Below are positions 9,349 through 36,659 of a DNA stretch of 36,659 bases, piece by piece. The translations under genes and the position numbers were made by a program. Every line of letters begins with the position of its first letter. The first letter of the stretch is position 1. The notes beneath the pieces were generated by a model. That model was not told the DNA's origin and did not search any database. It worked only from the letters and a program-made list of their open reading frames with translations. This DNA comes from an uncultured Bacteroidota bacterium (GTDB lineage Bacteria; Bacteroidota; Bacteroidia; Bacteroidales; GCA-2748055), in NCBI GenBank assembly GCA_937129385.1, contig CAKZNC010000208.1, forward strand, positions 1-36,659. The letters are read 5' to 3'.

Positions 9349-10194
9349 TCAATTGTATTGCCGGTCGAGTTCTTTTTTCCTTCGTGTGCCGAACAGGTGA
9401 AAGTCAAGGATCGACCCCGCGTTTACTTTGGAATAGACAAGCCTCCGGTTCATGCGCTGGATGAACAGCAGCAGGGGAGACCAGGTCAGGATGCGCCGAG
9501 AGAGCATCCAGCGCGCATCATATTTCCATCCGGACCTTTTCGCCGGATCCGTACGGGCAATGTTACCGCTGATGATATGACTCGTGGTATTGCCGGGGAC
9601 CAGCAATTTTGCTGAATAAGGGATGCCGGTATGCTCCGCGATCAATTGCAACAGGTGATCAGGGTACAATGCAAGTTCTTCATATCCAACGAAGATTGGA
9701 TCGATCCCCATCTTCCTGATCCTCCTGAGAAGCTTCTTGTTTTCCAGGAACCATCTCAACATAAAGTAAACTACCGGTTTCCCGGTGGACAAATGTCGTG
9801 AATAACTCCAGCTGCGCACATCTCTCGTGAGAAAGACCAGGGAGAGGTCATGTTGTTGATTCATGTATGACAGGTATGGATAGCTGTTTTTGGAGGAGTC
9901 CACCAGCACCGTACCTTTTCCTTCCACCTCATCAAGCAATCTCACCACTGCTTCTATCTTTTCCGGGTCTGTTTTCAGACCATTGATTGCGTTCGGAATC
10001 TTTCCCCAGATATCGCAGTCACCGGCCTTTTTTCCACAGGAGCAAACGGAGGTATAGTGTTTCTGACGGGTGTTGTCATCCATCAGGGTTTTCAATTCAC
10101 CCAATCCGGTCACCCCCCCGGCAGCACCAAGCGACATGTCCAGGAGGGTCGTTCCTGAATGTCCCAATCCCGCAATATAGATGATCTTTGACAT
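9349..10194 (-). CDS. Sulfotransferase family protein
   Basis: 281 residues from the ATG at 10192-10194. The PAPS 5'-phosphosulfate loop is near the N-terminus (IAGLGHSGTTLLD) and the 3'-phosphate motif is LTRDVRSWSYSRH. This is the type-2 sulfotransferase pattern, which transfers sulfate from PAPS to a glycan, lipid or other acceptor in the cytoplasm. A Cys-rich segment (VCSCGKKAGDCDIW) is reminiscent of related sulfotransferases with a small metal-binding insertion; that reading is inference. It lies 36 bases downstream of the membrane/NTPase fusion gene on the same strand, so it may be the last gene of the ModE-like/TonB receptor cluster. The acceptor is unknown. Confidence 0.85.
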   Translation of the reverse strand: MSKIIYIAGLGHSGTTLLDMSLGAAGGVTGLGELKTLMDDNTRQKHYTSVCSCGKKAGDCDIWGKIPNAINGLKTDPEKIEAVVRLLDEVEGKGTVLVDSSKNSYPYLSYMNQQHDLSLVFLTRDVRSWSYSRHLSTGKPVVYFMLRWFLENKKLLRRIRKMGIDPIFVGYEELALYPDHLLQLIAEHTGIPYSAKLLVPGNTTSHIISGNIARTDPAKRSGWKYDARWMLSRRILTWSPLLLFIQRMNRRLVYSKVNAGSILDFHLFGTRRKKELDRQYN

Positions 10195-10230
10195 GCTGAT
10201 TTTAAAATCTGAACCCAAAGATACAGAATC

Positions 10231-11937
10231 TTAATCAACAGAGAGAAATTCAGCCAGCCCTTCTGCCGTCCACTGGTCGGACTGGATCACGTTTTCACCG
10301 GGCACCATGTAATTGAGCCGGATCTCCTTTTGCATTCTTTCCCTTACAACCCAAACCTGTCGTACATCACGACGGTCTTTAAGCATCTCCAGTGCCTGGT
10401 GCCAGCCCTTTCCCTTCATCTCAACAGGACCCACTTCATCCAGTATGACCAGGTCTGCACGCTCCTTCAGTGCCTGACCGATCGTTGCCGTTCCTTTCAA
10501 GAATATATCCGGATTAAAAAAGAAAGGGCCGTAGGGCGTCCAACCCTTTTCCGGTTTGCGCGATGCCAAAAGTTCCGCTTTCCCGGTCTTGATATCCCAG
10601 ATGAAGAATTCATTGCGCTTGCCGTCCCGGAAATTACCGGGAGCCAGGATACCGCGGACCTTCAACCCTTTTTCCATCAGAAGACCGGCGGTTTCCTTGA
10701 CAAGTGTTGTTTTTCCCGATTGCGTGGGACCGGTCAGTAAGAAAACATTGTCACGCGGACTGGACTCCTCAGAGAATTTTTTAAGCAGGAGATCGGCCTG
10801 ACTGATCATCGTAACGATCAGCCGTTTCCTCTGCCTGACCATGGTCCGGAATCCAGGCAAACGGTCGATCACGAATGGCAGGGCCGTAAATGAAAGATTC
10901 AAAGCTACATACAGGTTTGAAAGTCCATTGCGCTGAAGGATGCTTCTGATCAGCGGGTTGCGGAGTTCAACGCTCAGTGCAGAGAATCCGAAGATGATCA
11001 CCATGGCCCTGAAGATCATTTTCAACCCGATCTCCAGTCCCTCAATGGAAAAGTATGCTCCTGTGGACAGCCACTCCCAGAGCAGCGTTGCAATGAAAGT
11101 CAGTACAGTGAATTGAATCCAGATGCCGGGCTTCCTGAGATAGCGTGTGGTGCGGCGATACCGGGCAAGGACATAGGCCAGGAAAGCCAACCCCATGGGA
11201 AGGTATATCCAGACCTGGGTGCGGTCTGTAAGATAAAGAGTGATGACAACTGCAAATGTGATGAAGAGGATATGAACCGCATTGTAGTTGTTGAAATTGG
11301 ATTGCTGCAGGTATCCGGAACGCTTGCGCGCAGGAAGGGCAATGTCGGCCCGGTCCTTTTCTCCCGGACGCCTGAAGGTGAGATAACCCATTAGGGCAGA
11401 CAGGATGCCTGCAAGGGCATAGCTTGCTGCTACGATGATAATAAGTAGGGCAGGGGTCACCTGTTCCAGGCCGGTCTTTACCACGGCCCACTGGTAAAAT
11501 GCTTCAAGGACCCTTACAAGGTCAAAACCGTACAGGATGATAAAATTCAGGACCTTCTGGACAAGGGCCCACATCACCGCCAATGCACCCGCAAGCATAT
11601 AGCTGAACAGGTGTCGGCCCAGGAACCGTGTTACAAATTCAAGGATCACTGCCTCCATTACAATTGCGATCATGGGCCCAAGGATCACTGCGCTTGGAGA
11701 GATAGATTTCATCAGCGCAGCGACAACGCCGGCCCGCAGGATCACCCCGGGCTCTTTCCAGTGACGCATGAATGCCACGAGCATGAAGACACTGAACATG
11801 GAGAGCATGGTCCCTGCAAAGGGGAGCCGGATATTGTGCAGGAAGCTCCCTGCAATGATCTCGATGGCTGCCCAGAGAGAGCCAAGTACAGCCGCTTTGA
11901 TCCATTTTTCCGATATCCGGGAACTCCTTTCTCCCAT
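10231..11937 (-). CDS. Membrane protein with ECF S-like and EcfT-like regions fused to a THEP1-type NTPase
   Basis: 568 residues in three parts. Residues 13-187 are five or six hydrophobic helices resembling an ECF transporter substrate-binding (S) component. Residues 220-390 have further helices and a stretch (FRAMVIIFGFSALSVELRNP, then a long amphipathic segment to VIDRLPGF) that resembles an EcfT transmembrane component. Residues 398-568 are a P-loop NTPase of the THEP1/NTPase_1 type, with Walker A GPTQSGKTT (403-411) and Walker B LVILDEVGPVE (496-506; DE[IV]GP is characteristic). No ABC signature motif is present. The gene starts 16 bases after the TonB-dependent receptor stop, so the two are co-transcribed. 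The inference is an inner-membrane importer or its energiser that receives the substrate delivered by the receptor. The S and T assignments rest on pattern only. Confidence 0.72.
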   Translation of the reverse strand: MGERSSRISEKWIKAAVLGSLWAAIEIIAGSFLHNIRLPFAGTMLSMFSVFMLVAFMRHWKEPGVILRAGVVAALMKSISPSAVILGPMIAIVMEAVILEFVTRFLGRHLFSYMLAGALAVMWALVQKVLNFIILYGFDLVRVLEAFYQWAVVKTGLEQVTPALLIIIVAASYALAGILSALMGYLTFRRPGEKDRADIALPARKRSGYLQQSNFNNYNAVHILFITFAVVITLYLTDRTQVWIYLPMGLAFLAYVLARYRRTTRYLRKPGIWIQFTVLTFIATLLWEWLSTGAYFSIEGLEIGLKMIFRAMVIIFGFSALSVELRNPLIRSILQRNGLSNLYVALNLSFTALPFVIDRLPGFRTMVRQRKRLIVTMISQADLLLKKFSEESSPRDNVFLLTGPTQSGKTTLVKETAGLLMEKGLKVRGILAPGNFRDGKRNEFFIWDIKTGKAELLASRKPEKGWTPYGPFFFNPDIFLKGTATIGQALKERADLVILDEVGPVEMKGKGWHQALEMLKDRRDVRQVWVVRERMQKEIRLNYMVPGENVIQSDQWTAEGLAEFLSVD

Positions 11938-11953
11938 GGTTCCGCAGGTGAGG

Positions 11954-13930
11954 CTACAACTGGAAATTCAACGATGCGAACCAGGTACGACCCGGTGCCG
12001 GAAACCCCTCTGTCAGCGCATAATCTCTGTCAAGCAGGTTTTCAATACCTGCCTCCAGGGTGATCAGTTTTCTGAACGTATAGGAGGCCTGCAGGTCAAT
12101 CGTCGAAAATGCCCCGGCAATGGTCCCATAACTGGTGCTGTACCGTTCCGACATGTACCTGAAATGGCCTGAGATGTCAAAGCTCTCCGTTGGCTCCACC
12201 TGTACCGAGACATTTACCTCGTGTTCGGGGACATGGGTGAAATAGGTATCCGGATCATACAGACTGATAAAGCTTACATACGCATAGTTCGCTGCCAGGG
12301 AGACAACCCTGGCCGGTGAAAATTCAGCAGAGAATTCCATGCCGTAATTTTGAGCGGTACCGGTGTTCTGCGACTGGTTCAGACCGGTGATCGTGTCATA
12401 GACCACCACAATTGCATCATCCATCAGTGCGTAAAAAACAGCCCCATCAAGTTTCAACATATCAGTTACCTTGCCCCGGTACTTCAACTCTGCCTGGGTG
12501 CCGCGTTCCGGACCAAGGTCTGGGTTCGGAATACCGAATCCGGCGCGGTAGGAATATCGCTCTTTCATGGTGGCAAACCGGAATTTCCGGTAAATACCGA
12601 ACTGGATATCATGATCTTCCGCTATACTGTATTGCAGGGCCAGCTGGGCAGAGATCCCACGGGCACTGTTTCCTGCCAGCACATCGATGGAGCTGTCGGC
12701 CGGCACATATTCCTCGGCGAGCAGACCCGACCTGGCTGAATAGATGAAATTACCGAGGATACGTGTATTTTTGCTGACCCGCATTACATCTTCAACTCCG
12801 GCCGTGAAGGTCACATCCCTGAAATTCCTCGTTGGCTCCTCCTCGTTGTGTTCAGCATGGTGATCGTCCTTCACACGGCCAATAAACCTAAGGTGGTTGC
12901 CCTCGATCCCCGTATAGTTGTACTCCACCCCCGAGCCGATGGAATAGTCGTCGTAATAACTATTGAAAGCGTAGCCTCGTGTCTGGGAAGAATAGGTATT
13001 GTCATCAAAACTGCTCAGCTGGTTGCTGAAATCATCGTAATAGGCCCTGAACTTGAAATATGCAAAATCACCTGTCCGTTTTTTCCCGATGAAATAGAGG
13101 CTGTTCTTGTTCCAGTAGGGCCATCTCCAGAAACGCTCACGCTGCTGTGGATCAGTGCCGGCATAAGGTGGCGTGCCTTTCTCACTTCGGTGCATCAGGA
13201 AATTCAGACTGTATTCGTCAAATTCATTGGGTGTGAAGCCGGCTTTCAGGTTCAGGTTCATATGACTGAACCATGAGTTGTCCCGCTCCTGTCCGTCCTC
13301 CGTAACGGTCAGACCGGTGGTGTCAAAATCGGCCGACAAAGGAAAGTGATCCTGGTTCACGGTTGAGAACACGCCGGACAGGTAAAACCTTTCAAATTTG
13401 CTGCCGATGCCGAGGCTGGTATGTTGCCTGTTCCCGGTTGCATATCCGGCCGAGGCTCTGACTTCAAGTGGTTTGACAGGTTTACGGCTGACAATATTGA
13501 TCGCACCGCCGGGTGCAGCACTGCCGAAACCGGCAGGAGTGTACCCTTTCGATACAGAAATACCGGAAAAATTCCTGGTATTGACCGCCCCGAGATCCAT
13601 GTAGCCGTCGTAGGGTACATATACCGGGATCCCGTCGAAATAGACAGGTACACTGCGGATGTCAAATCCCCTTACTAGGACTGAAGATTCGCCCCGACCT
13701 CCGAAATTCACCAGGTTGACACCAGGAAGCCTGCTGCTGACCGTGGCGGCATCATTGGTGTGATAGGTGTCCATGGTGCCGGAGGGAAGCATGGGGGGCT
13801 CTTTTTCAGTCGTGATTTTCACTTCTCCAAGTTCATAGACCATGGAGATCGAATCGGCGTCTGTGAGCTGCGCCTTCATCCCGATTGATGAAGCTGTAAA
13901 AAAAATGATTGCAATGATCCGTGTTTTCAT
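11954..13930 (-). CDS. TonB-dependent outer-membrane receptor
   Basis: 658 residues from the ATG at 13928-13930. A signal peptide of about 20 residues ends MKAQ. The plug domain follows: the VKITTEKEPP region, SSRLPGVNLVNFGGRGESSVLVRGFDIRSVPVYFDGIPVY, then GGAINIVSRKPV. The rest is a beta-barrel of alternating aromatic strands ending ENLLDRDYALTEGFPAPGRTWFASLNFQL, with the terminal hydrophobic residue needed for barrel assembly. At this length, and without a SusC-type carboxypeptidase-like N-terminal domain, it belongs to the small-ligand class (siderophore, cobalamin, metal chelate). It is co-transcribed with the membrane/NTPase fusion and lies 89 bases downstream of the ModE-like regulator gene, which suggests an oxyanion or metal complex as ligand. 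That is inference. Confidence 0.92.
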   Translation of the reverse strand: MKTRIIAIIFFTASSIGMKAQLTDADSISMVYELGEVKITTEKEPPMLPSGTMDTYHTNDAATVSSRLPGVNLVNFGGRGESSVLVRGFDIRSVPVYFDGIPVYVPYDGYMDLGAVNTRNFSGISVSKGYTPAGFGSAAPGGAINIVSRKPVKPLEVRASAGYATGNRQHTSLGIGSKFERFYLSGVFSTVNQDHFPLSADFDTTGLTVTEDGQERDNSWFSHMNLNLKAGFTPNEFDEYSLNFLMHRSEKGTPPYAGTDPQQRERFWRWPYWNKNSLYFIGKKRTGDFAYFKFRAYYDDFSNQLSSFDDNTYSSQTRGYAFNSYYDDYSIGSGVEYNYTGIEGNHLRFIGRVKDDHHAEHNEEEPTRNFRDVTFTAGVEDVMRVSKNTRILGNFIYSARSGLLAEEYVPADSSIDVLAGNSARGISAQLALQYSIAEDHDIQFGIYRKFRFATMKERYSYRAGFGIPNPDLGPERGTQAELKYRGKVTDMLKLDGAVFYALMDDAIVVVYDTITGLNQSQNTGTAQNYGMEFSAEFSPARVVSLAANYAYVSFISLYDPDTYFTHVPEHEVNVSVQVEPTESFDISGHFRYMSERYSTSYGTIAGAFSTIDLQASYTFRKLITLEAGIENLLDRDYALTEGFPAPGRTWFASLNFQL

Positions 13931-13933
13931 TAA

Positions 13934-13996
13934 ATATCGATTATAGTTGAGTTTTATTGCGATATAACACAAAAGGAATAACGGTGGGCAAAAATA
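13934..13996 (-). promoter_or_regulatory. Promoter and inverted-repeat operator candidate of the TonB receptor operon
   Basis: On the minus strand, TATTTTTG (13989-13996) matches the Bacteroidota -7 box TAnnTTTG. No good -33 TTG is seen. Between it and the receptor ATG lies an inverted repeat, ATATCG at 13934-13939 and CGATAT at 13960-13965 (plus-strand reading), with arm centres 26 bases apart. TA-rich CG-containing half-sites resemble ModE operators, and a ModE-like protein is encoded 89 bases upstream. A palindrome AATCGATT at 14001-14008 is also near. The assignment is tentative. Confidence 0.4.
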
Positions 13997-14019
13997 TATA
14001 AATCGATTGAAAACTGCAT

Positions 14020-14364
14020 TTAAAATGAGATGTTTCTGAGCGCATCGTCCAGGAAGGCCTTTGTTTTTTTGCAGAGTTCGTCATATTGCTCCAGTATACG
14101 CCTGCCGTATTCAGTAATTTCTGCATTACCGCCCTTCGCACCACCACGGTGCAGTACCACCATGGTTTCCGGGGCATTTTCATTCAGCTGCTGAATGCTG
14201 TACCAGGCTTTCCTGTAAGACATATTCATCTCGGAAGCAGCCTTTCTGAGCGACCCTTTCTCGGAGATATGCTTCAGCAATGCCGCTTTACCGGGGGCAA
14301 GAAATGTTTCTCCCCCTTTTTCAAACCAGATACGGCAGCCGGCCTCAATATTATTGTGGTCCAT
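14020..14364 (-). CDS. ModE-like winged-helix transcriptional regulator (DNA-binding domain only)
   Basis: 114 residues that match the N-terminal DNA-binding domain of ModE. LLKHISEKGSLRKAASEMNM followed by SYRKAWYSIQQLN is the helix-turn-helix. RGGAKGGNAEITEYGRRILEQYD is the wing and dimer helix, including the diagnostic GG..GG.A.LT.YG pattern. The C-terminal Mop/TOBE molybdate-binding domains of full ModE are absent, so the protein cannot sense molybdate the same way. Single-domain ModE relatives are common beside molybdenum genes in many bacteria. It is upstream of and in line with the TonB receptor operon and likely controls it through sites at about 13934-14008. No modABC or cofactor genes are in the window. 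Confidence 0.85.
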   Translation of the reverse strand: MDHNNIEAGCRIWFEKGGETFLAPGKAALLKHISEKGSLRKAASEMNMSYRKAWYSIQQLNENAPETMVVLHRGGAKGGNAEITEYGRRILEQYDELCKKTKAFLDDALRNISF

Positions 14365-14460: not shown

Positions 14461-15219
14461 TCAGTGGTATCTTTTATACTGGCGTTCGATACGTCTTTTT
14501 TTCCTGTTTTCCCTTGCTTCTCTTCTGTCTTCCCGCAGTTCCTGCCTGTCTTCCCGCAGCTCCTTTCTATCCTCTTTAAGCTCCTCCTCGGTCCAGCGAA
14601 GGTCTCCTTCCATGGTCTCGAGAAAGGAATGGAGCATGTCTATTTCGGGGATTGTGTTCAGGTCATTTGATTCTGTGATCACCGACCACCCGGCGAACCG
14701 ATCCCGGATATTCTCCTGCCTGATCAGACGGTCTTCCAGGACCGCCAGGTCATTCCGGTCATCTTCCAGGTCTTTCAACTCATCTTTGTGGTCCCGCCGG
14801 TCATCCCTGAAATCTCTCCGTGCATCCCACCTCTTGCCCAGTCCGGTTACAAGCTCTCCACTGCTCTGATCGATATCCCGAAAAGATCCTGAAACTTCCC
14901 TCTCACTCTGACGGATCTCCCTTACACCGGCATTGGCTTTGGCATGGCCCTGGTCAATTTCCCGGTCCATACTCACAATGAGGGCATTTTTAACCGCGTC
15001 AATTTCTTCAACGTTGACCGACAAGTAGGCAATCTTATAATCCTTCACTAAGTCGTTAAATGCAGCAATCTCCTCTGCATCCCTGTCCAGGTGTCTTTTT
15101 GCCACACTTATCTCGTGTTTGGTTCCGCGCTTTTCAAGCCTGTCCCTGAAAACCTGCGCAGTCAGTAATTGCGGAATAGCTATCATTGCAGCAAGTATGA
15201 TATAGGTTGATCGTTTCAT
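14461..15219 (-). CDS. Exported charged coiled-coil protein of unknown function
   Basis: 252 residues. A signal peptide (MKRSTYIILAAMIAIPQLLTAQ) sends it to the periplasm. The rest is highly charged and helical, rich in Asp, Glu and Arg, with a repetitive tail of EDRKELR/EDRQELR/EDRREAR heptads and a middle RDDRRDHKDELKDLEDDRNDL segment, consistent with one or more long coiled coils. No catalytic motif is visible. A shortened, 5'-truncated relative is encoded just upstream at 15365-15733, so this is a local duplication. The function is not recognised; a structural or peptidoglycan-spanning role is possible but unsupported. It is followed by the ModE-like regulator after about 96 bases. Confidence 0.75.
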   Translation of the reverse strand: MKRSTYIILAAMIAIPQLLTAQVFRDRLEKRGTKHEISVAKRHLDRDAEEIAAFNDLVKDYKIAYLSVNVEEIDAVKNALIVSMDREIDQGHAKANAGVREIRQSEREVSGSFRDIDQSSGELVTGLGKRWDARRDFRDDRRDHKDELKDLEDDRNDLAVLEDRLIRQENIRDRFAGWSVITESNDLNTIPEIDMLHSFLETMEGDLRWTEEELKEDRKELREDRQELREDRREARENRKKRRIERQYKRYH

Positions 15220-15304
15220 GGCAAATCAGTTTTAAAATCTGTTCTATATTGAATACTATAAAAACTGTGCCAGGCTTGAATCATTGTCCGCAACTACGCA
15301 TTTC

Positions 15305-15343
15305 AAAAAAAAGCTGCGATCGGGTTTTCCCGGACGCAGCTTT
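15305..15343 (-). terminator. Strong intrinsic terminator, minus strand
   Basis: AAAGCTGCG (15310-15318) pairs with CGCAGCTTT (15335-15343), and inside it CGGG pairs with CCCG around TTTT. On the minus strand the hairpin is followed by an eight-base T-run (plus-strand A-run from 15305). It lies 21 bases after the stop of the truncated coiled-coil gene, so it ends that transcription unit before the intact paralog. Confidence 0.85.
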
Positions 15344-15364
15344 AAAACTTGGAAATCATTTACT

Positions 15365-15733
15365 TTATCTTCGTTCTCTTCTCTCCCTCCGGTCTTCACG
15401 TAACTCTTTCCTGTCCTCTTTGAGCTCAGCCTGGTCCTCGTCGAGTTCTGCCTTGAGCGCAATGATGTCATCTTCCATTGATTTGATGAAGCGATTCAGG
15501 AGCTTCTTTTCAATGTTGGTTTCATACTGGGAGGGTGTTGCCGACTTATAACTGTATGTCCTGAATTTTTCATAGATGTCCTGCTGGATCATGAGTCGGT
15601 TGCCCTGTGAGGCAAGGTCCCGCTTCTCATCTGAATAATCTTGCTTATCATCCCTCAGGTCCCTTCGGTCATCGGCCAGGTCCCTTGCATCTTCTTCCTT
15701 GCTGTCACTTCTTGTACGGAGATCCCTACTCCT
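15365..15733 (-). pseudogene. 5'-truncated paralog of the charged coiled-coil protein
   Basis: The frame is open from a TAA at 15734-15736 to the stop at 15365 and encodes RDLADDRRDLRDDKQDYSDE, further charged heptads and a C-terminus AELKEDRKELREDRRERRER. This aligns along its length with the C-terminal half of the protein at 14461-15219. No ATG occurs before the internal Met at 15590-15592, and no signal peptide or N-terminal half is found upstream in any frame. It therefore looks like the residue of a duplication that lost its 5' half. Translation from the internal Met would give 75 residues. The strong terminator downstream is preserved. Confidence 0.7.
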
Positions 15734-20692: not shown

Positions 20693-21451
20693 TTATATTA
20701 CATAGTTCAGTTTTTTCAGCAATTCCACAGCCTCTTTACGGGATACCAGTGCGTCGACACGTTCTGCCACTTCCGGGTCTTTCCATTTTCCAATGGATGA
20801 GCCATAGAACTCACTCACCGGTCCGGCGAGCGCACGGTTTCTTCTGACTGTAGCATGACGGTGCCATTCCAGCAGTTCGCCGTCAACCGGGATGTCCAGG
20901 AACCGGCAGATCTCTGCAATGGTTGTCTCATAATTCATGACAAGGTCTTCGTACCTGACCAAGTGGACACGCTGATCATCATAATGCTTCAGCCCTTCCG
21001 ACACATCGGCGATCCAGCGTTCCGGCTCCACCCAGTAGAGATTCGGGTTTCGAGGGTGCCTGGAGAGGATCACATCCCGACCGTCCCTGACGATATGGAT
21101 CATCCTGAACTGGTCGCCGTGTATGGATGCCAGGTTTTTGATGTTCCAGATATTGGAGGGGGATTTTTCGCAATACCGGATTGCAGTCGGCTTGATCTTC
21201 TCCCTGGTGAAGGTCCTGTACAAACGGTACCATTTTGGAAGATAGAGCTTGCCGTTTCTGAGCGTGGAACCCTCGAACAGGTTGAGTTCACGCGGACAGG
21301 CGAAGATTTCAGGATGAGCAGACAGGATGGAGAGTAGCAGGGTGGTGCCCGAGCGGCCACATCCGCCGATGTAGATGGGTGGATCGGTGAATCTGCGTTT
21401 TTCGATGCGACGACCGAAAAACCTGATGAATGGAATGATGAGTCTTTTCAT
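20693..21451 (-). CDS. Sulfotransferase family protein
   Basis: 252 residues from the ATG at 21449-21451; a GTG three codons upstream is less likely. The PAPS-binding loop is IGGCGRSGTTLLLSIL and the 3'-phosphate site is HIVRDGRDVILSRHPRN. Both are strong matches to the Sulfotransfer_1/3 families. A conserved later segment LVRYEDLVMNYETTIAEIC is also typical. It probably sulfates a glycan or lipid made in the cytoplasm. It lies close to a second sulfotransferase-like gene at 21579-22259, on the same strand with a 127-base gap. Confidence 0.9.
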   Translation of the reverse strand: MKRLIIPFIRFFGRRIEKRRFTDPPIYIGGCGRSGTTLLLSILSAHPEIFACPRELNLFEGSTLRNGKLYLPKWYRLYRTFTREKIKPTAIRYCEKSPSNIWNIKNLASIHGDQFRMIHIVRDGRDVILSRHPRNPNLYWVEPERWIADVSEGLKHYDDQRVHLVRYEDLVMNYETTIAEICRFLDIPVDGELLEWHRHATVRRNRALAGPVSEFYGSSIGKWKDPEVAERVDALVSRKEAVELLKKLNYVI

Positions 21452-21578
21452 GCCTGGCACGAAGATACCGAACTCCTGGCAGATTTAGATGATTTGGTGC
21501 TGAATTGAGCGGGGATTTTTACAAAATGCATGTAGAGATGCTTCTCTCGTGAAGGGTACGTGATGAGAGATCGGATGG

Positions 21579-22259
21579 TTACTTTTCGTAAATTTTATAC
21601 CCCAGTTGTCCGGCAACCTCCCGGTTGAGGTGCATATTGAGTTGTGCAAGCGCTTCACGGCTGAATTCATCCAGGTAGGCTTGCTGTGTGTAGTACCTGG
21701 CCTTTTTGGACGAAAACCTGTGTGACATGGGCACTTTTCGGATTCTTCCGGCAGAGTTGAGTTTCTTTGTCACCTCCAGGTCAAATCGATCTCTCAGCTT
21801 TTTCAGCTCCCGCCGGGGATGTTTCAACAGATCTATGTATCTTATAAATACGATCCGGTTGGTCTGCCCGGAAAACTCCAGCCATTTACCATAGAACTCG
21901 TTGTATTCCAGGATGTAGGGATGGGGAGATTCGGGCCAGTTGTTCTTCTCTCCCCACCTGGAATAGCTCAGGTGCCAGCTGTAGGGATCCTTGGAGATCA
22001 CCACGTACATATCGGGTTTTTTATTGCTGAAAACTGAAGCTTCAAATGCCTGGAAGGATTTGAAAACCTGGTCGTTCATGAAATTCGGCCTGCCGATCAG
22101 CTCCTTGTTGTCATAAATCCTGAAATGCTTGTGCAGGGGGTGCCCGCGTTCCTCCTCCACGTTGAGGAACCCTACGTTAAAGTGACGTTCCAGGAGTTGC
22201 TTCAGGTAATTGGTGCCGCTCCTGTTCAGTCCGAAATGAAGGATCTTTTTTCGTGACAT
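21579..22259 (-). CDS. Sulfotransferase-like P-loop protein
   Basis: 226 residues from the ATG at 22257-22259, which places the P-loop-like PSB motif (LHFGLNRSGTNYLKQLL) at the very N-terminus as expected. The second motif is YVVISKDPYSWHLSYSRWG, where KDPYSW takes the place of the usual RDPR. Later IVFIRYIDLLKHP matches the RYEDL region. The fold is therefore sulfotransferase-like, but the 3'-phosphate motif is degenerate, so activity is less certain than for its neighbour. An upstream in-frame extension to 22307 lacks similarity. It is in tandem with the sulfotransferase at 20693-21451. Confidence 0.75.
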   Translation of the reverse strand: MSRKKILHFGLNRSGTNYLKQLLERHFNVGFLNVEEERGHPLHKHFRIYDNKELIGRPNFMNDQVFKSFQAFEASVFSNKKPDMYVVISKDPYSWHLSYSRWGEKNNWPESPHPYILEYNEFYGKWLEFSGQTNRIVFIRYIDLLKHPRRELKKLRDRFDLEVTKKLNSAGRIRKVPMSHRFSSKKARYYTQQAYLDEFSREALAQLNMHLNREVAGQLGYKIYEK

Positions 22260-22304
22260 CGTATTGTAATTGCGCTGCAAAGGTACCATGAATTTTGAAG
22301 ACTC

Positions 22305-22425
22305 CATTCATTTCCCTTATCTCCGTGCATCTCCCTTTTCTCCGTGAATCTCCGTGCAATAGCTCTCTGTAATAGCTTTGTGACCCGTTGTGCCTCCTTT
22401 GCGGTTCTTTGTGTAACAACCATTG
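22305..22425. repeat. Degenerate CACGGAG/CGCAAAG low-complexity block
   Basis: Read on the minus strand, the intergenic stretch consists of loosely repeated ACCGCAAAG, GTCACAAAG, TTGCACGGAG, TTCACGGAG and TGCACGGAG elements. It resembles the more regular block at 25262-25556 in word content. No gene or known RNA is visible. It sits between the terminator of the SHOCT lipoprotein gene and the sulfotransferase-like gene. Confidence 0.55.
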
Positions 22426-23173: not shown

Positions 23174-23791
23174 TCAGATGACGGAGAAGTAAACAAGGCT
23201 CCTGTATACCATGTCCGCTGCGAAATAGATAAAAATCAGTGCAAATGCTTTGAATGCGGCTGGCACGATCTTCGGCCGTGAGAGCAATGCCCGGAACTGC
23301 GAAAACAGGTAGGCAACGATCATGGTAGAGATGAGCCATCCTGCCTGTACCAGTCCCATGAACAGGAAATCTCCCAGGGGCATGGTTTGTTCAAGCAATA
23401 CCGCCCTTGGAATGCAGATGGTGATCCAGTAGGTCCAGAGCACCCCGTTGGTGAGGATCATGACCGTGATCTTCCAGGGACCAAAGAAGACCTTCTCGTC
23501 TGTGTCCAGACTCTTTACCTTCCTGAGGCTGTTGGCGATCCACAGCAGTACAACCGCGCCTGCAAAGGAGAGGATCCGGAAGACCGATTCGTTCAGACCG
23601 AGAGATGAAAAGAGCAGCAGGCTGACCACCGCCACGGCTGTTTCGACGAACATGGCGATGAAAATAATCCGGAGCGCACTCCTGTAGCCCGACTGCAATA
23701 CCTGGGTGAAGATGGCGGTCACAACCGGACCCGGTATCAGTCCGCCAATGAGTCCGAGTGTTAAGGCCGTAAGCAGTTCCTGTGTGATCAT
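23174..23791 (-). CDS. LysE family translocator
   Basis: 205 residues with six hydrophobic helices. The N-terminal GLIGGLIPGPVVTAIFTQVLQSG is the LysE/RhtB signature (the family form is ..PGP....). Members export amino acids or related small molecules across the inner membrane. The ATG overlaps the stop of the upstream sulfatase by four bases (ATGA type), so the genes are translationally coupled. The pairing with a sulfatase is unusual and the exported substrate is not evident. Confidence 0.88.
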   Translation of the reverse strand: MITQELLTALTLGLIGGLIPGPVVTAIFTQVLQSGYRSALRIIFIAMFVETAVAVVSLLLFSSLGLNESVFRILSFAGAVVLLWIANSLRKVKSLDTDEKVFFGPWKITVMILTNGVLWTYWITICIPRAVLLEQTMPLGDFLFMGLVQAGWLISTMIVAYLFSQFRALLSRPKIVPAAFKAFALIFIYFAADMVYRSLVYFSVI

Positions 23792-25188
23792 TCTCTCGCG
23801 TTGGGTTGATAGTCAGGGTTCGGTTTTGATGGCACCCTGGCTTTGGACTGTGCCCTCCAGAGATACAGCATATTCATGAGTTCAGTGACTTTTTCCGGAT
23901 TCTGTTCTGCTACATTCTGCATTTCTCCGGGATCATCCACCAGGTTGAACAGTTCAATTTCCCCATCCTCAAAATACTCCTGCAGTTTCCAGTCACCATA
24001 CCGTATCACACTGCCGGGCCTGGTCCTGAACAGGATGTCCCGCGTATCTGTATTTCCTCGTTGCAGGTATACAGGGAAGTGCCAGTAAAGCGGTCTTTGT
24101 TCCGGTTTTTTTCCTTTGAGTAGCAAGGGTGCCAGGCTGATCCCGTCAAATCGTTTTCCAGGCAATTGTGCACCAATGATCTCCACCAGGGTAGGGAAGA
24201 AGTCCATGTTCAAAACTGGCACATCTTCATTGACTCCGGGCTTGATCACCGCTGGCCAGGAAAAGAACAACGGAACCCGAATACCTCCTTCATAATAGCT
24301 TCCTTTACCGGCCCGTAGTGGCTTCTGTTGGGATATCCTGAACAGGCCTCCGTTGTCAGACGTGAAAATAATGAGTGTGTTCTCATAGACCCCCATCTCT
24401 TTCAGTTTATCGACCAACAGGCCAATGTTCCGGTCGAGGTTATAGATCATGGTAGCGTACCGCGGGTTGCTCATCCCCGCTGTCCCGTGCTTATCTATGA
24501 ACCGGTACATCAGGCTGTCGACCTTGTGGATTGGCGTGTGCACAGCGTAGGGTGAATAATACAAAAAGAACGGATCACCATGCCTGTTGTCGAGGAATTC
24601 AAGCACATGATCCATGATGTTGTCCGTCAGGTAGGAGCTGTCGGGGGCCTCCAGGTCGACATTTCCATATGGAAAGTAGTACGACGTGGGATGACCGTTG
24701 TGTCCGCCACCAATGTTGTAATCAAATCCGTGATCACGGGAATCTTCACTCAGGTGCCACTTCCCGGCCTGGCAGGTTGTATATCCGTAAACCCGTAAAG
24801 CTTCGGCCATGGTGGTCATGCTGTCGTGCAGGGTGACCCGGTTTTTTGTAGGGATGATCTTCCGGTTACTGCTTAGGCCTCGCTCTGATGATCCGACGGT
24901 ATAGATGCCGTGGCGGGGTGTATTCAGACCTGTCATCATACACGCCCTGCTGGGAGCGCAGTTGGCACCGGCGGCATATCCCTGCAAAAAGACCAGTCCT
25001 TCTGATGCCAGCTGATCGATGTTGGGCGATTCATAATATGCACTGCCCATATAGCCGAGATCGGCCCATCCCAGGTCATCGACATTGATCAGTACAATAT
25101 GTGGCGGAACCTCCGGTGCTTTGCTTCGATTGCAGGAGAGGGTCATTGCAATGGCGACCAATACGATGAGGATGGATTTACTTTTCAT
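23788..25188 (-). CDS. Sulfatase (S1 family) lipoprotein
   Basis: 466 residues. The signal ends MTLSC with Cys19, indicating a lipoprotein. Metal-binding VDDLGWADLG contributes D37 and D38. The active-site motif is CAPSRACMMTG, with C77 the residue converted to formylglycine (C-x-P-S-R-x4-TG), so the anaerobic or aerobic maturase is required. FTSDNGG supplies the later Asp-Asn pair. Full length for an arylsulfatase-type S1 enzyme. It removes sulfate esters from a glycan or other substrate in the periplasm or at the surface. It is coupled by a 4-base overlap to the LysE-type exporter. Confidence 0.94.
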   Translation of the reverse strand: MKSKSILIVLVAIAMTLSCNRSKAPEVPPHIVLINVDDLGWADLGYMGSAYYESPNIDQLASEGLVFLQGYAAGANCAPSRACMMTGLNTPRHGIYTVGSSERGLSSNRKIIPTKNRVTLHDSMTTMAEALRVYGYTTCQAGKWHLSEDSRDHGFDYNIGGGHNGHPTSYYFPYGNVDLEAPDSSYLTDNIMDHVLEFLDNRHGDPFFLYYSPYAVHTPIHKVDSLMYRFIDKHGTAGMSNPRYATMIYNLDRNIGLLVDKLKEMGVYENTLIIFTSDNGGLFRISQQKPLRAGKGSYYEGGIRVPLFFSWPAVIKPGVNEDVPVLNMDFFPTLVEIIGAQLPGKRFDGISLAPLLLKGKKPEQRPLYWHFPVYLQRGNTDTRDILFRTRPGSVIRYGDWKLQEYFEDGEIELFNLVDDPGEMQNVAEQNPEKVTELMNMLYLWRAQSKARVPSKPNPDYQPNARE

Positions 25189-35654: not shown

Positions 35655-36659
35655 TCAATACCAGTTCCCTCCCTCTTCGATCATTTCCTTTCTTAAACGA
35701 AGCGCTGTACGTATCATCTCCGCCACGCGATCAGGATGCTCCGCGGAAACATCATGTTCCTGCGCGATATCTTCCTCCAGGTTGTACAGCTCAAAATGCT
35801 GCGGTTCCTGGTCCAGCAGGTATTCCATGTGCGTTTTGTTGAATCCCCACATTGACCATGGCGGGTCTCCGGGAGCGGGCTTCAGTTTCGCCAGTTCACG
35901 AACATCATAGTTCTCCTGCAAAGGTATCGGATCCACGAACCCCAGCAGGCACCAGTCTCCTTCACGCAGCATGCTCACCGGGTCATGGAAATAGCGGTAG
36001 AAGAAGATGGGGGTCTCCCTTTCTGGTGCATCTTCATCTCCCCTGAACACCGGCGTCATATCCACGCCGTCTATTACACGGTCATCCGGCACCTCAGCCC
36101 TTGTAAATGCCGCCAGCGAGGGGAGCACATCGGTAAAGCTGCCTGGTGCATCGCTTACGGTCCCTTCGGGTACAACCCCGGGATACTTGATAATAAAGGG
36201 ATCCCGGATCCCGCCCTCGAAATTCAACGCCTTCCGTCCCCGCAGTGGAAGATTCGAATTGGGCTTGTCTGACCCGTTGTCCGAACTGAAGATCACGATG
36301 GTATTGTCATTCAGATCATGCAAATCCAGGTACGCAAGCAACCGGCCCACCGCCATGTCCATGTTCTCAATACAACCGTAATACTGCTTAAGATATTCAT
36401 GCTGTTCGGCCAGGGCAGGGGGGGCGGCCTCTTTGGAATGGGGCTCATTGAACCAGATGTTCAGGAAAAACGGTTCGTCCGGTTTCCTGATCGTATCCAG
36501 CCAGCTCAATGCCTCATCCATTACGATCTGACAGGCATATCCCTCGCGGAGTCCCTCTGGCTCCCCGTTCCTGAAATAGTTTACCGGATTGTGATGAGAA
36601 GGCTGCGCATTGTTGTACGCGAAAAATGCATAATCAAACCCCTGGTCCATGGGCAGTGG
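35655..36659 (-). CDS. Sulfatase (S1 family), N-terminus beyond the window
   Basis: The frame stays open to the right edge: upstream of the Met at 36650 it reads PLP, giving the usual sulfatase segment LPMDQGFDYAFF that follows the GKWHLG region. The formylglycine motif lies outside the window. Visible family features are FFLNIWFNEPHSKEAAP, FSSDNGSDKP with the Asp-Asn pair, the GRKALNFEGGIRDPFIIKYP segment (typically LRGRKG..WEGGIR.P) and the C-terminal LYNLEEDIAQEHDVSAEHPD. It probably desulfates a glycan. Its 3' end is joined almost directly to the RHS array. Confidence 0.93.
   Translation of the reverse strand, partial: PLPMDQGFDYAFFAYNNAQPSHHNPVNYFRNGEPEGLREGYACQIVMDEALSWLDTIRKPDEPFFLNIWFNEPHSKEAAPPALAEQHEYLKQYYGCIENMDMAVGRLLAYLDLHDLNDNTIVIFSSDNGSDKPNSNLPLRGRKALNFEGGIRDPFIIKYPGVVPEGTVSDAPGSFTDVLPSLAAFTRAEVPDDRVIDGVDMTPVFRGDEDAPERETPIFFYRYFHDPVSMLREGDWCLLGFVDPIPLQENYDVRELAKLKPAPGDPPWSMWGFNKTHMEYLLDQEPQHFELYNLEEDIAQEHDVSAEHPDRVAEMIRTALRLRKEMIEEGGNWY

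Follow-up and report, generated by a model that had tools for sequence, protein, structure and literature searches.

A minus-strand operon encoding a BtuB-like TonB receptor and an S-T-NTPase fusion as a candidate salvage importer of molybdenum cofactor in Bacteroidota

In the salvage of vitamin B12 by BtuB-BtuFCD, a TonB receptor and an inner-membrane importer take up a large and scarce cofactor, which the cell finishes after uptake. The prevailing view of the molybdenum cofactor (Moco) is that its instability prevents trade between organisms. Caenorhabditis elegans takes up dietary Moco from its bacterial diet, and as of 2022 the nematode was the only reported case of Moco uptake (PMC9793310). 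A genome survey reported about 305 bacterial genomes that have molybdoenzymes but an incomplete Moco pathway, most of them also without known Mo transporters, and left these orphan molybdoenzymes open as a sign of either new biosynthesis components or Mo-free enzymes (PMC6147048). No bacterial Moco importer was found in the literature that we searched, mostly open-access papers. Here, we analyzed a window of 36,659 nucleotides, the whole stretch of DNA under study, from an uncultured Bacteroidota bacterium (contig CAKZNC010000208.1). It contains an operon that is the best candidate for the uptake of the ready-made cofactor, or of a precursor, in this organism.

The apparent operon lies on the minus strand and is composed, in this order, of a gene for a ModE N-terminal winged-helix protein of 114 aa (14020..14364), a gene for a BtuB-like TonB-dependent receptor (11954..13930), and the gene for a 568-aa S-T-NTPase fusion, the candidate inner-membrane importer (10231..11937). 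The intergenic gaps are 47-89 bp from the ModE gene to the receptor gene and 16 bp from the latter to the fusion gene. The receptor reading frame is open to 13972, but the ATG at 13930, ahead of a likely signal peptide, appears to be the likelier start. Both the plug (PF07715, 3.1e-14) and the beta-barrel (PF00593, TonB_dep_Rec, 4.4e-23) were detected in the receptor, and the closest NCBIfam model was that of the B12 (BtuB) type (TIGR01779, 8.7e-31). The ModE-like protein matched TIGR00637 with an E value of 1.6e-20 and 73 bits, under the curated cut-off of 98.5, and PDB entry 1b9m in a sequence search (7.4e-14). In agreement with the first-pass annotation, which had described a ModE-type regulator without its molybdate domain, no C-terminal molybdate-binding domain was found in this protein: the chain stops at residue 114, and the N domain alone matches.

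The proposed control by ModE was strengthened by the finding of a ModE operator, CGTTAT-N12-ATATCG, at 13960..13983 on the minus strand, between the ModE and receptor genes and about 30 bp upstream of the receptor ATG. It has one mismatch to CGTTAT-N12-ATAACG, the Escherichia coli operator placed about 20 bp before modA in the K-12 record, and it was the sole near match in the window, with 0.07 expected. The element was also present upstream of four other operons of the S-T-NTPase family. Among 177 loci, the exact matches were all directly upstream of family operons (L037, identical to L008, L038, and L064), and when 1.34 Mb were scanned allowing up to one mismatch, five out of seven matches fell in the upstream windows of family operons; these upstream windows account for 6.6% of the bases (p 2.4e-5). 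A Moco riboswitch was also sought, and no Rfam match was obtained in the window or the five loci scanned.

The surroundings of the operon include three sulfotransferase-like genes and two sulfatases (9349-10218, 20693-21460, 21579-22307, 23788-25188, and 35655-36650). The sulfotransferase-like gene at 9349-10218 begins 12 bp past the fusion gene, and it was considered as a member of the system and dropped, because it was not seen adjoining the fusion in other loci. Upstream of the operon, the stretch 14461-15592 encodes two highly charged proteins with many ELREDRQELREDRREARENR-type repeats and no family match.

The first-pass annotation had read the 568-residue chain as an ECF S-like domain, an EcfT-like domain, and a THEP1-type NTPase, and this composition was borne out by an AlphaFold model built from 44 sequences (pLDDT 86). 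Residues 8-196 (11350..11916, minus strand) aligned with the ECF S-component 5edl over 163 residues with a VIA-align Z of 14.0, and with CbiM (5x3x_M) with a Z of 8.2. Residues 209-392 matched five EcfT chains, 5d3m_D (Z 8.4), 7nnt_D (8.1), 4rfs_T (7.8), 4huq_T (7.0), and 6zg3_D (6.8), with rmsd of 6.0-7.9; these are moderate scores, yet they were the top matches for the T region, and the EcfT-like transmembrane domain was assigned to residues 212-392 (10762..11304, minus strand). The top seven VIA-align rows for the S-T region were all ECF proteins. Foldseek alone returned nothing significant for this region (best E 0.067), the fold being then resolved by VIA-align, and the results of a fold search with the full-length model were filled by the NTPase domain. 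No ECF-family Pfam match was found for residues 1-392 or in any of 18 homologues, and neither the PDB sequence search of the S-T region nor NCBIfam gave a meaningful match. The S and T assignments are, therefore, visible by fold only, and of the two kinds of evidence sought for them, profile similarity failed to appear and structural similarity did appear.

The NTPase domain, residues 396-568 (10234..10752, minus strand), was recognized both by sequence (PF03266, E 6.4e-20) and by its THEP1 fold (1ye8, Z 17.7; 2i3b, Z 15.4), and showed a weak similarity to the mobB model TIGR00176 (0.0027). The Walker motifs noticed in the first pass are intact, with Walker A G408/K409 and Walker B D500/E501 invariant across 70 homologues. 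Most invariant residues of the fusion fall in the S domain (W12, G19, W22, E26, G30, S31, H34, N35, P39, R68, P81, S82, P88, and M89). No ABC ATPase (EcfA/EcfA') was found in the fusion chain or among the window genes scanned, as had been noted before. Collectively, the model indicates that the fusion is an ECF-type S domain, an EcfT-like domain, and a THEP1 NTPase in one chain, and an outer-membrane receptor next to an ECF-like inner-membrane fusion agrees with the two-membrane design first proposed for this locus.

The S-T-NTPase fusion is a real and widespread family. In genome contigs, 505 related places were found, the best 80 being nearly all from Bacteroidota, with one labelled KSB1 and one labelled Chlorobiota, and family matches were present in 35 out of 61 relatives. 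Most lineages have the S-T and NTPase parts in one chain, whereas two genera, both of one family, have them as separate genes. Over about 100 loci, the frequent neighbours were MobA, PhsABC/DMSO-reductase enzymes, DUF364, and MoeA-MogA or FdhD, which supports the link to molybdenum made in the first reading. MobA was at position +/-1 of the family gene in 16 of the best 80 loci and in 10 of the relatives set, two being common to both; further neighbours were a PhsA-like Mo-bisMGD enzyme with FeS and NrfD subunits, DmsC, and a Nitro_FeMo-Co/OsmC cluster. A conserved receptor-fusion-ModE cluster, which had been anticipated, turned out to be uncommon as a unit: receptor or ModE neighbours were seen in about five loci, against many more with MobA, molybdoenzymes, or DUF364, and receptor orthologues adjoin the fusion in L038, L044, and L084, bringing the receptor linkage to four loci only with the window included.

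Several arrangements deserve description. In G046, an apparent operon contains DUF364, the S-T/NTPase fusion, and, directly downstream of it, MoeA and MogA. In G005 and G010, where the genes are split, NTPase, MobA, S-T, and PhsABC are consecutive, and the window genome has a counterpart of this locus on contig C19, MlaE-ABC-MobA-PhsABC, but carries its S-T gene in the window instead. An S-T gene without NTPase adjoins MobA in G004, G016, and G018. In a distant lineage (G192, G069, and G141), the S-T gene is followed by a single gene joining NTPase and MobA, with FdhD close and, in G192 and G069, with formate-dehydrogenase-like molybdoenzyme genes nearby; for G069 and G141, Pfam detects the MobA half only, and the NTPase half is assigned from similarity to the G192 protein.

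Other genes were observed around members of the family. A DUF364/DUF4213 protein, labelled as putative heavy-metal chelation, is encoded directly upstream of the fusion in eleven loci (for instance, 5987-6796 of L037), and its role here may be to carry Moco or molybdate. A Nitro_FeMo-Co domain protein is found immediately before the fusion in nine loci, several of them also with OsmC and DUF134 genes, which is another molybdenum-related setting. In four loci (L095, L117, L121, and L125), an FeS protein of about 455 aa that resembles reductive dehalogenases is encoded one or two genes upstream of the fusion. A MlaE-permease/ABC-ATPase-like pair (L166, 4876-6368) adjoins MobA-PhsABC in the window genome, G005, G010, and G040, the window-genome pair being likened to that of G005 by position and length; as the missing ATPase of the S-T-NTPase protein it was discarded, since it has its own permease. 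Standalone homologues of the NTPase domain, about 31-41% identical, occur in eleven loci, mostly of genus g2 and mostly within a conserved cluster of PLP decarboxylase, alcohol dehydrogenase, alpha-amylase, and DUF4332 genes, also in genomes where the S-T gene was not found. Distant S-T-like genes of 312-358 aa were seen in G125 (L147) and G143 (L175), the latter directly following a MOSC-domain gene; as G143 has MoaA, such distant relatives are not all in non-synthesizers.

The window genome, which is 99.7% complete, contains two bis-MGD enzymes, DmsA (TIGR02166, 898 bits, above the cut-off of 778) and PhsA of PhsABC, along with MobA. No MoaA, MoaC, MoaE, MoeA, or ModB was found in this genome, in line with the absence of a Mod permease that had been foreseen. 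The same five absences were found in nine relatives that are 90-99% complete (G001, G004, G005, G007, G016, G020, G036, G038, and G040); G046 and G057 differ in that MoeA-MogA is kept, and most of the pattern is thus common to these eleven high-quality relatives. Most family-gene carriers in the family of the window genome have no MoaC, and among the carriers reached through loci, which are genomes without completeness figures, 23 of 50 have none. Among MoaC-negative relatives at least 90% complete, 14 have a PF00384 enzyme, and the gene was present in 12 of these versus 0 of the 13 without one (p = 6e-6, an optimistic value because related genomes are not independent). G045 and G060, which have a PF00384 match and neither MoaC nor the S-T-NTPase gene, do not fit. 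MoaA, MoeA, MoaE, and ModB were searched in overlapping sets of 80 genomes. ModB, MoaA, and MoaC are all missing from the non-synthesizer carriers, and MoeA from most of them; MoeA was found in six (G046, G057, G264, G270, G276, and G277), and ModB was not found in these six. Three genomes of family f45 from the distant lineage, 99-100% complete, lack MoaA. In a class-wide sample of 197 genomes, the carriers were the window genome itself and seven distant ones, and the association of the S-T gene with MoaA was suggestive only (p 0.065).

Nearly all the genomes compared are metagenome-assembled, and since MoaA, MoaC, MoeA, and ModB are often on one contig, one missing contig can mimic loss in any single genome; this is the likely explanation of the apparent loss in G256, G272, and G280. 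On the ST tree, the synthesis state switches at least 21 times, with 9-11 of the switches forced by well supported branches. The gene stays throughout, and the pattern is not one event. Synthesizers of the order (G058, G003, G032, and G050) encode a short MoaA of about 266 aa that matches only about positions 1-198 of 336, together with MoaC, MoeA, and a MOSC-MogA fusion, and no MoaE.

We put at roughly 60% the probability that the operon is a salvage importer of molybdopterin (MPT) or Moco. Its cargo (MPT or Mo-MPT), the direction of transport, the cargo of the receptor, and the role of the NTPase are what we infer from the sequences. Passage of a molybdopterin-type cofactor, free or released by other microbes, across the outer membrane would be the task of the TonB receptor. 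The cofactor would then bind to the S domain and cross the inner membrane by way of the T domain, and the fused THEP1 NTPase would either power or gate this crossing or provide MobA with nucleotide. In the window genome, MobA is encoded on contig C19, and it would convert the imported cofactor to bis-MGD for the DMSO-reductase- and PhsA-type enzymes, and the ModE-domain regulator would control the operon via the classical ModE operator. In the six MoeA-positive non-synthesizers, either metal-free MPT may be imported or the metal re-inserted. The S-T-NTPase gene tracks molybdoenzymes whether or not the cell makes the cofactor, and in makers it is found mostly alongside ModB; synthesizers without the gene (G029, G042, and G059) are compatible with cofactor import.

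One alternative concerns the mechanism and is compatible with Moco salvage. The NTPase could be a MobB-like partner of MobA, supplying or holding nucleotide for MGD, and the S-T part a facilitator with metabolic trapping, or one served by EcfA from elsewhere; this is a serious option, albeit one that we lean against. The NTPase-MobA fusion of the distant lineage parallels known MobA-MobB fusions, and the weak mobB similarity and the S-T genes that adjoin MobA without NTPase in G004, G016, and G018 point the same way. In addition, the motor idea is weakened by the separate NTPase gene of the unrelated g2 cluster, found also without an S-T gene. Nevertheless, the main-lineage NTPase is fused behind the T domain, the expected docking place of an ATPase, and no EcfA was found among the window genes scanned.

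Regarding the cargo, molybdate or tungstate had been suggested in the first-pass annotation, and this part of it was not supported. A ModE-controlled molybdate/tungstate importer replacing ModABC, with the organic cofactor of non-synthesizers arriving via an unknown pathway, is in our estimate unlikely. It would agree with the ModE domain and operator, with the window genome being without ModB, with the f1 synthesizers G003, G009, and G012, which have the gene and no ModB, and with the MoeA-MogA genes linked to the fusion in G046. However, such an importer is expected to replace ModB in synthesizers and to be useless without MoeA, and the data are the reverse: ModB was found in 32 of the 39 synthesizers carrying the gene and in 0 of 34 non-synthesizers (p 3e-14, optimistic for the same lack of independence), so the gene is no ModB replacement, and it is kept in genomes that mostly have no MoeA, the known molybdate user, and hence no recognized need for molybdate. 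These observations fit the import of MPT or Mo-MPT. Moreover, G021, G025, and G029 make the cofactor with neither ModB nor the gene, indicating that another molybdate route exists. The cargo of the operon is, thus, probably other than molybdate.

A role in importing an intermediate of the pathway, be it cPMP or another pterin precursor, instead of MPT or Moco seems improbable to us. MoeA and MogA are present in G046, G057, and some others in spite of the absence of MoaA and MoaC, as would be expected from it, but cPMP needs MPT synthase, and MoaE is absent from nearly all these genomes. This objection is weakened by MoaE being found in only 7 of 80 genomes and missing even from most synthesizers; in the window genome, which has no MoeA, an intermediate preceding metal insertion would be insufficient in any case. 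Lastly, a transporter of pterin, queuosine, or another vitamin with incidental molybdenum neighbours, suggested by an S-component fold common to many vitamin importers, is very unlikely, given that ties to MobA, FdhD, MoeA-MogA, molybdoenzymes, and ModE boxes recur independently, and given the co-occurrence statistics of the gene and molybdoenzymes.

The Moco-salvage interpretation is, therefore, offered as a strong and testable hypothesis drawn from sequence comparison, not as a demonstrated function. Its extension, that the Bacteroidota carriers are Moco auxotrophs using the Moco of other microbes, with a TonB receptor and an S-T importer that a THEP1-type, non-ABC NTPase drives or gates as the means of uptake and with MobA finishing the cofactor to bis-MGD, and that part of the orphan molybdoenzymes is so explained, has about an even chance in our view. 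If true, a named importer would make the orphan-molybdoenzyme gap experimentally approachable, Moco would join the cofactors that microbes share, as with B12, and the ECF-like transporters would include one possibly independent of ABC ATPases.

Compared with described systems, the fusion has S- and T-domain folds like those of ECF importers (folate ECF, 5d3m; CbiMQO, 5x3x; S-component, 5edl), but it has both in one chain without a Pfam ECF sequence match, and it has a C-terminal THEP1 NTPase instead of the EcfA/EcfA' ABC pair, of which neither member was found among the window genes scanned. The fold, the Walker motifs, and the full domain are shared with THEP1/NTPase_1 proteins (PF03266; Aquifex 1ye8 and human 2i3b), whose solved members are soluble single-domain enzymes, whereas here the domain shares a chain with a membrane transporter or, in the distant lineage, with MobA. 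As in ModABC with ModE, there are a ModE-type regulator and its operator, and both systems serve molybdoenzymes; the differences are that the window genome has no ModB, that the cargo is most likely an organic cofactor, and that the ModE protein is without the molybdate-binding domain. As in C. elegans, the Moco would be made by another organism, although the importer there is an animal. The proposed system would work like BtuB-BtuFCD, with a BtuB-type TonB receptor and an inner-membrane importer, but at the inner membrane it has an ECF-like protein whose NTPase is not of the ABC type, and its genes are tied to the molybdenum cofactor.
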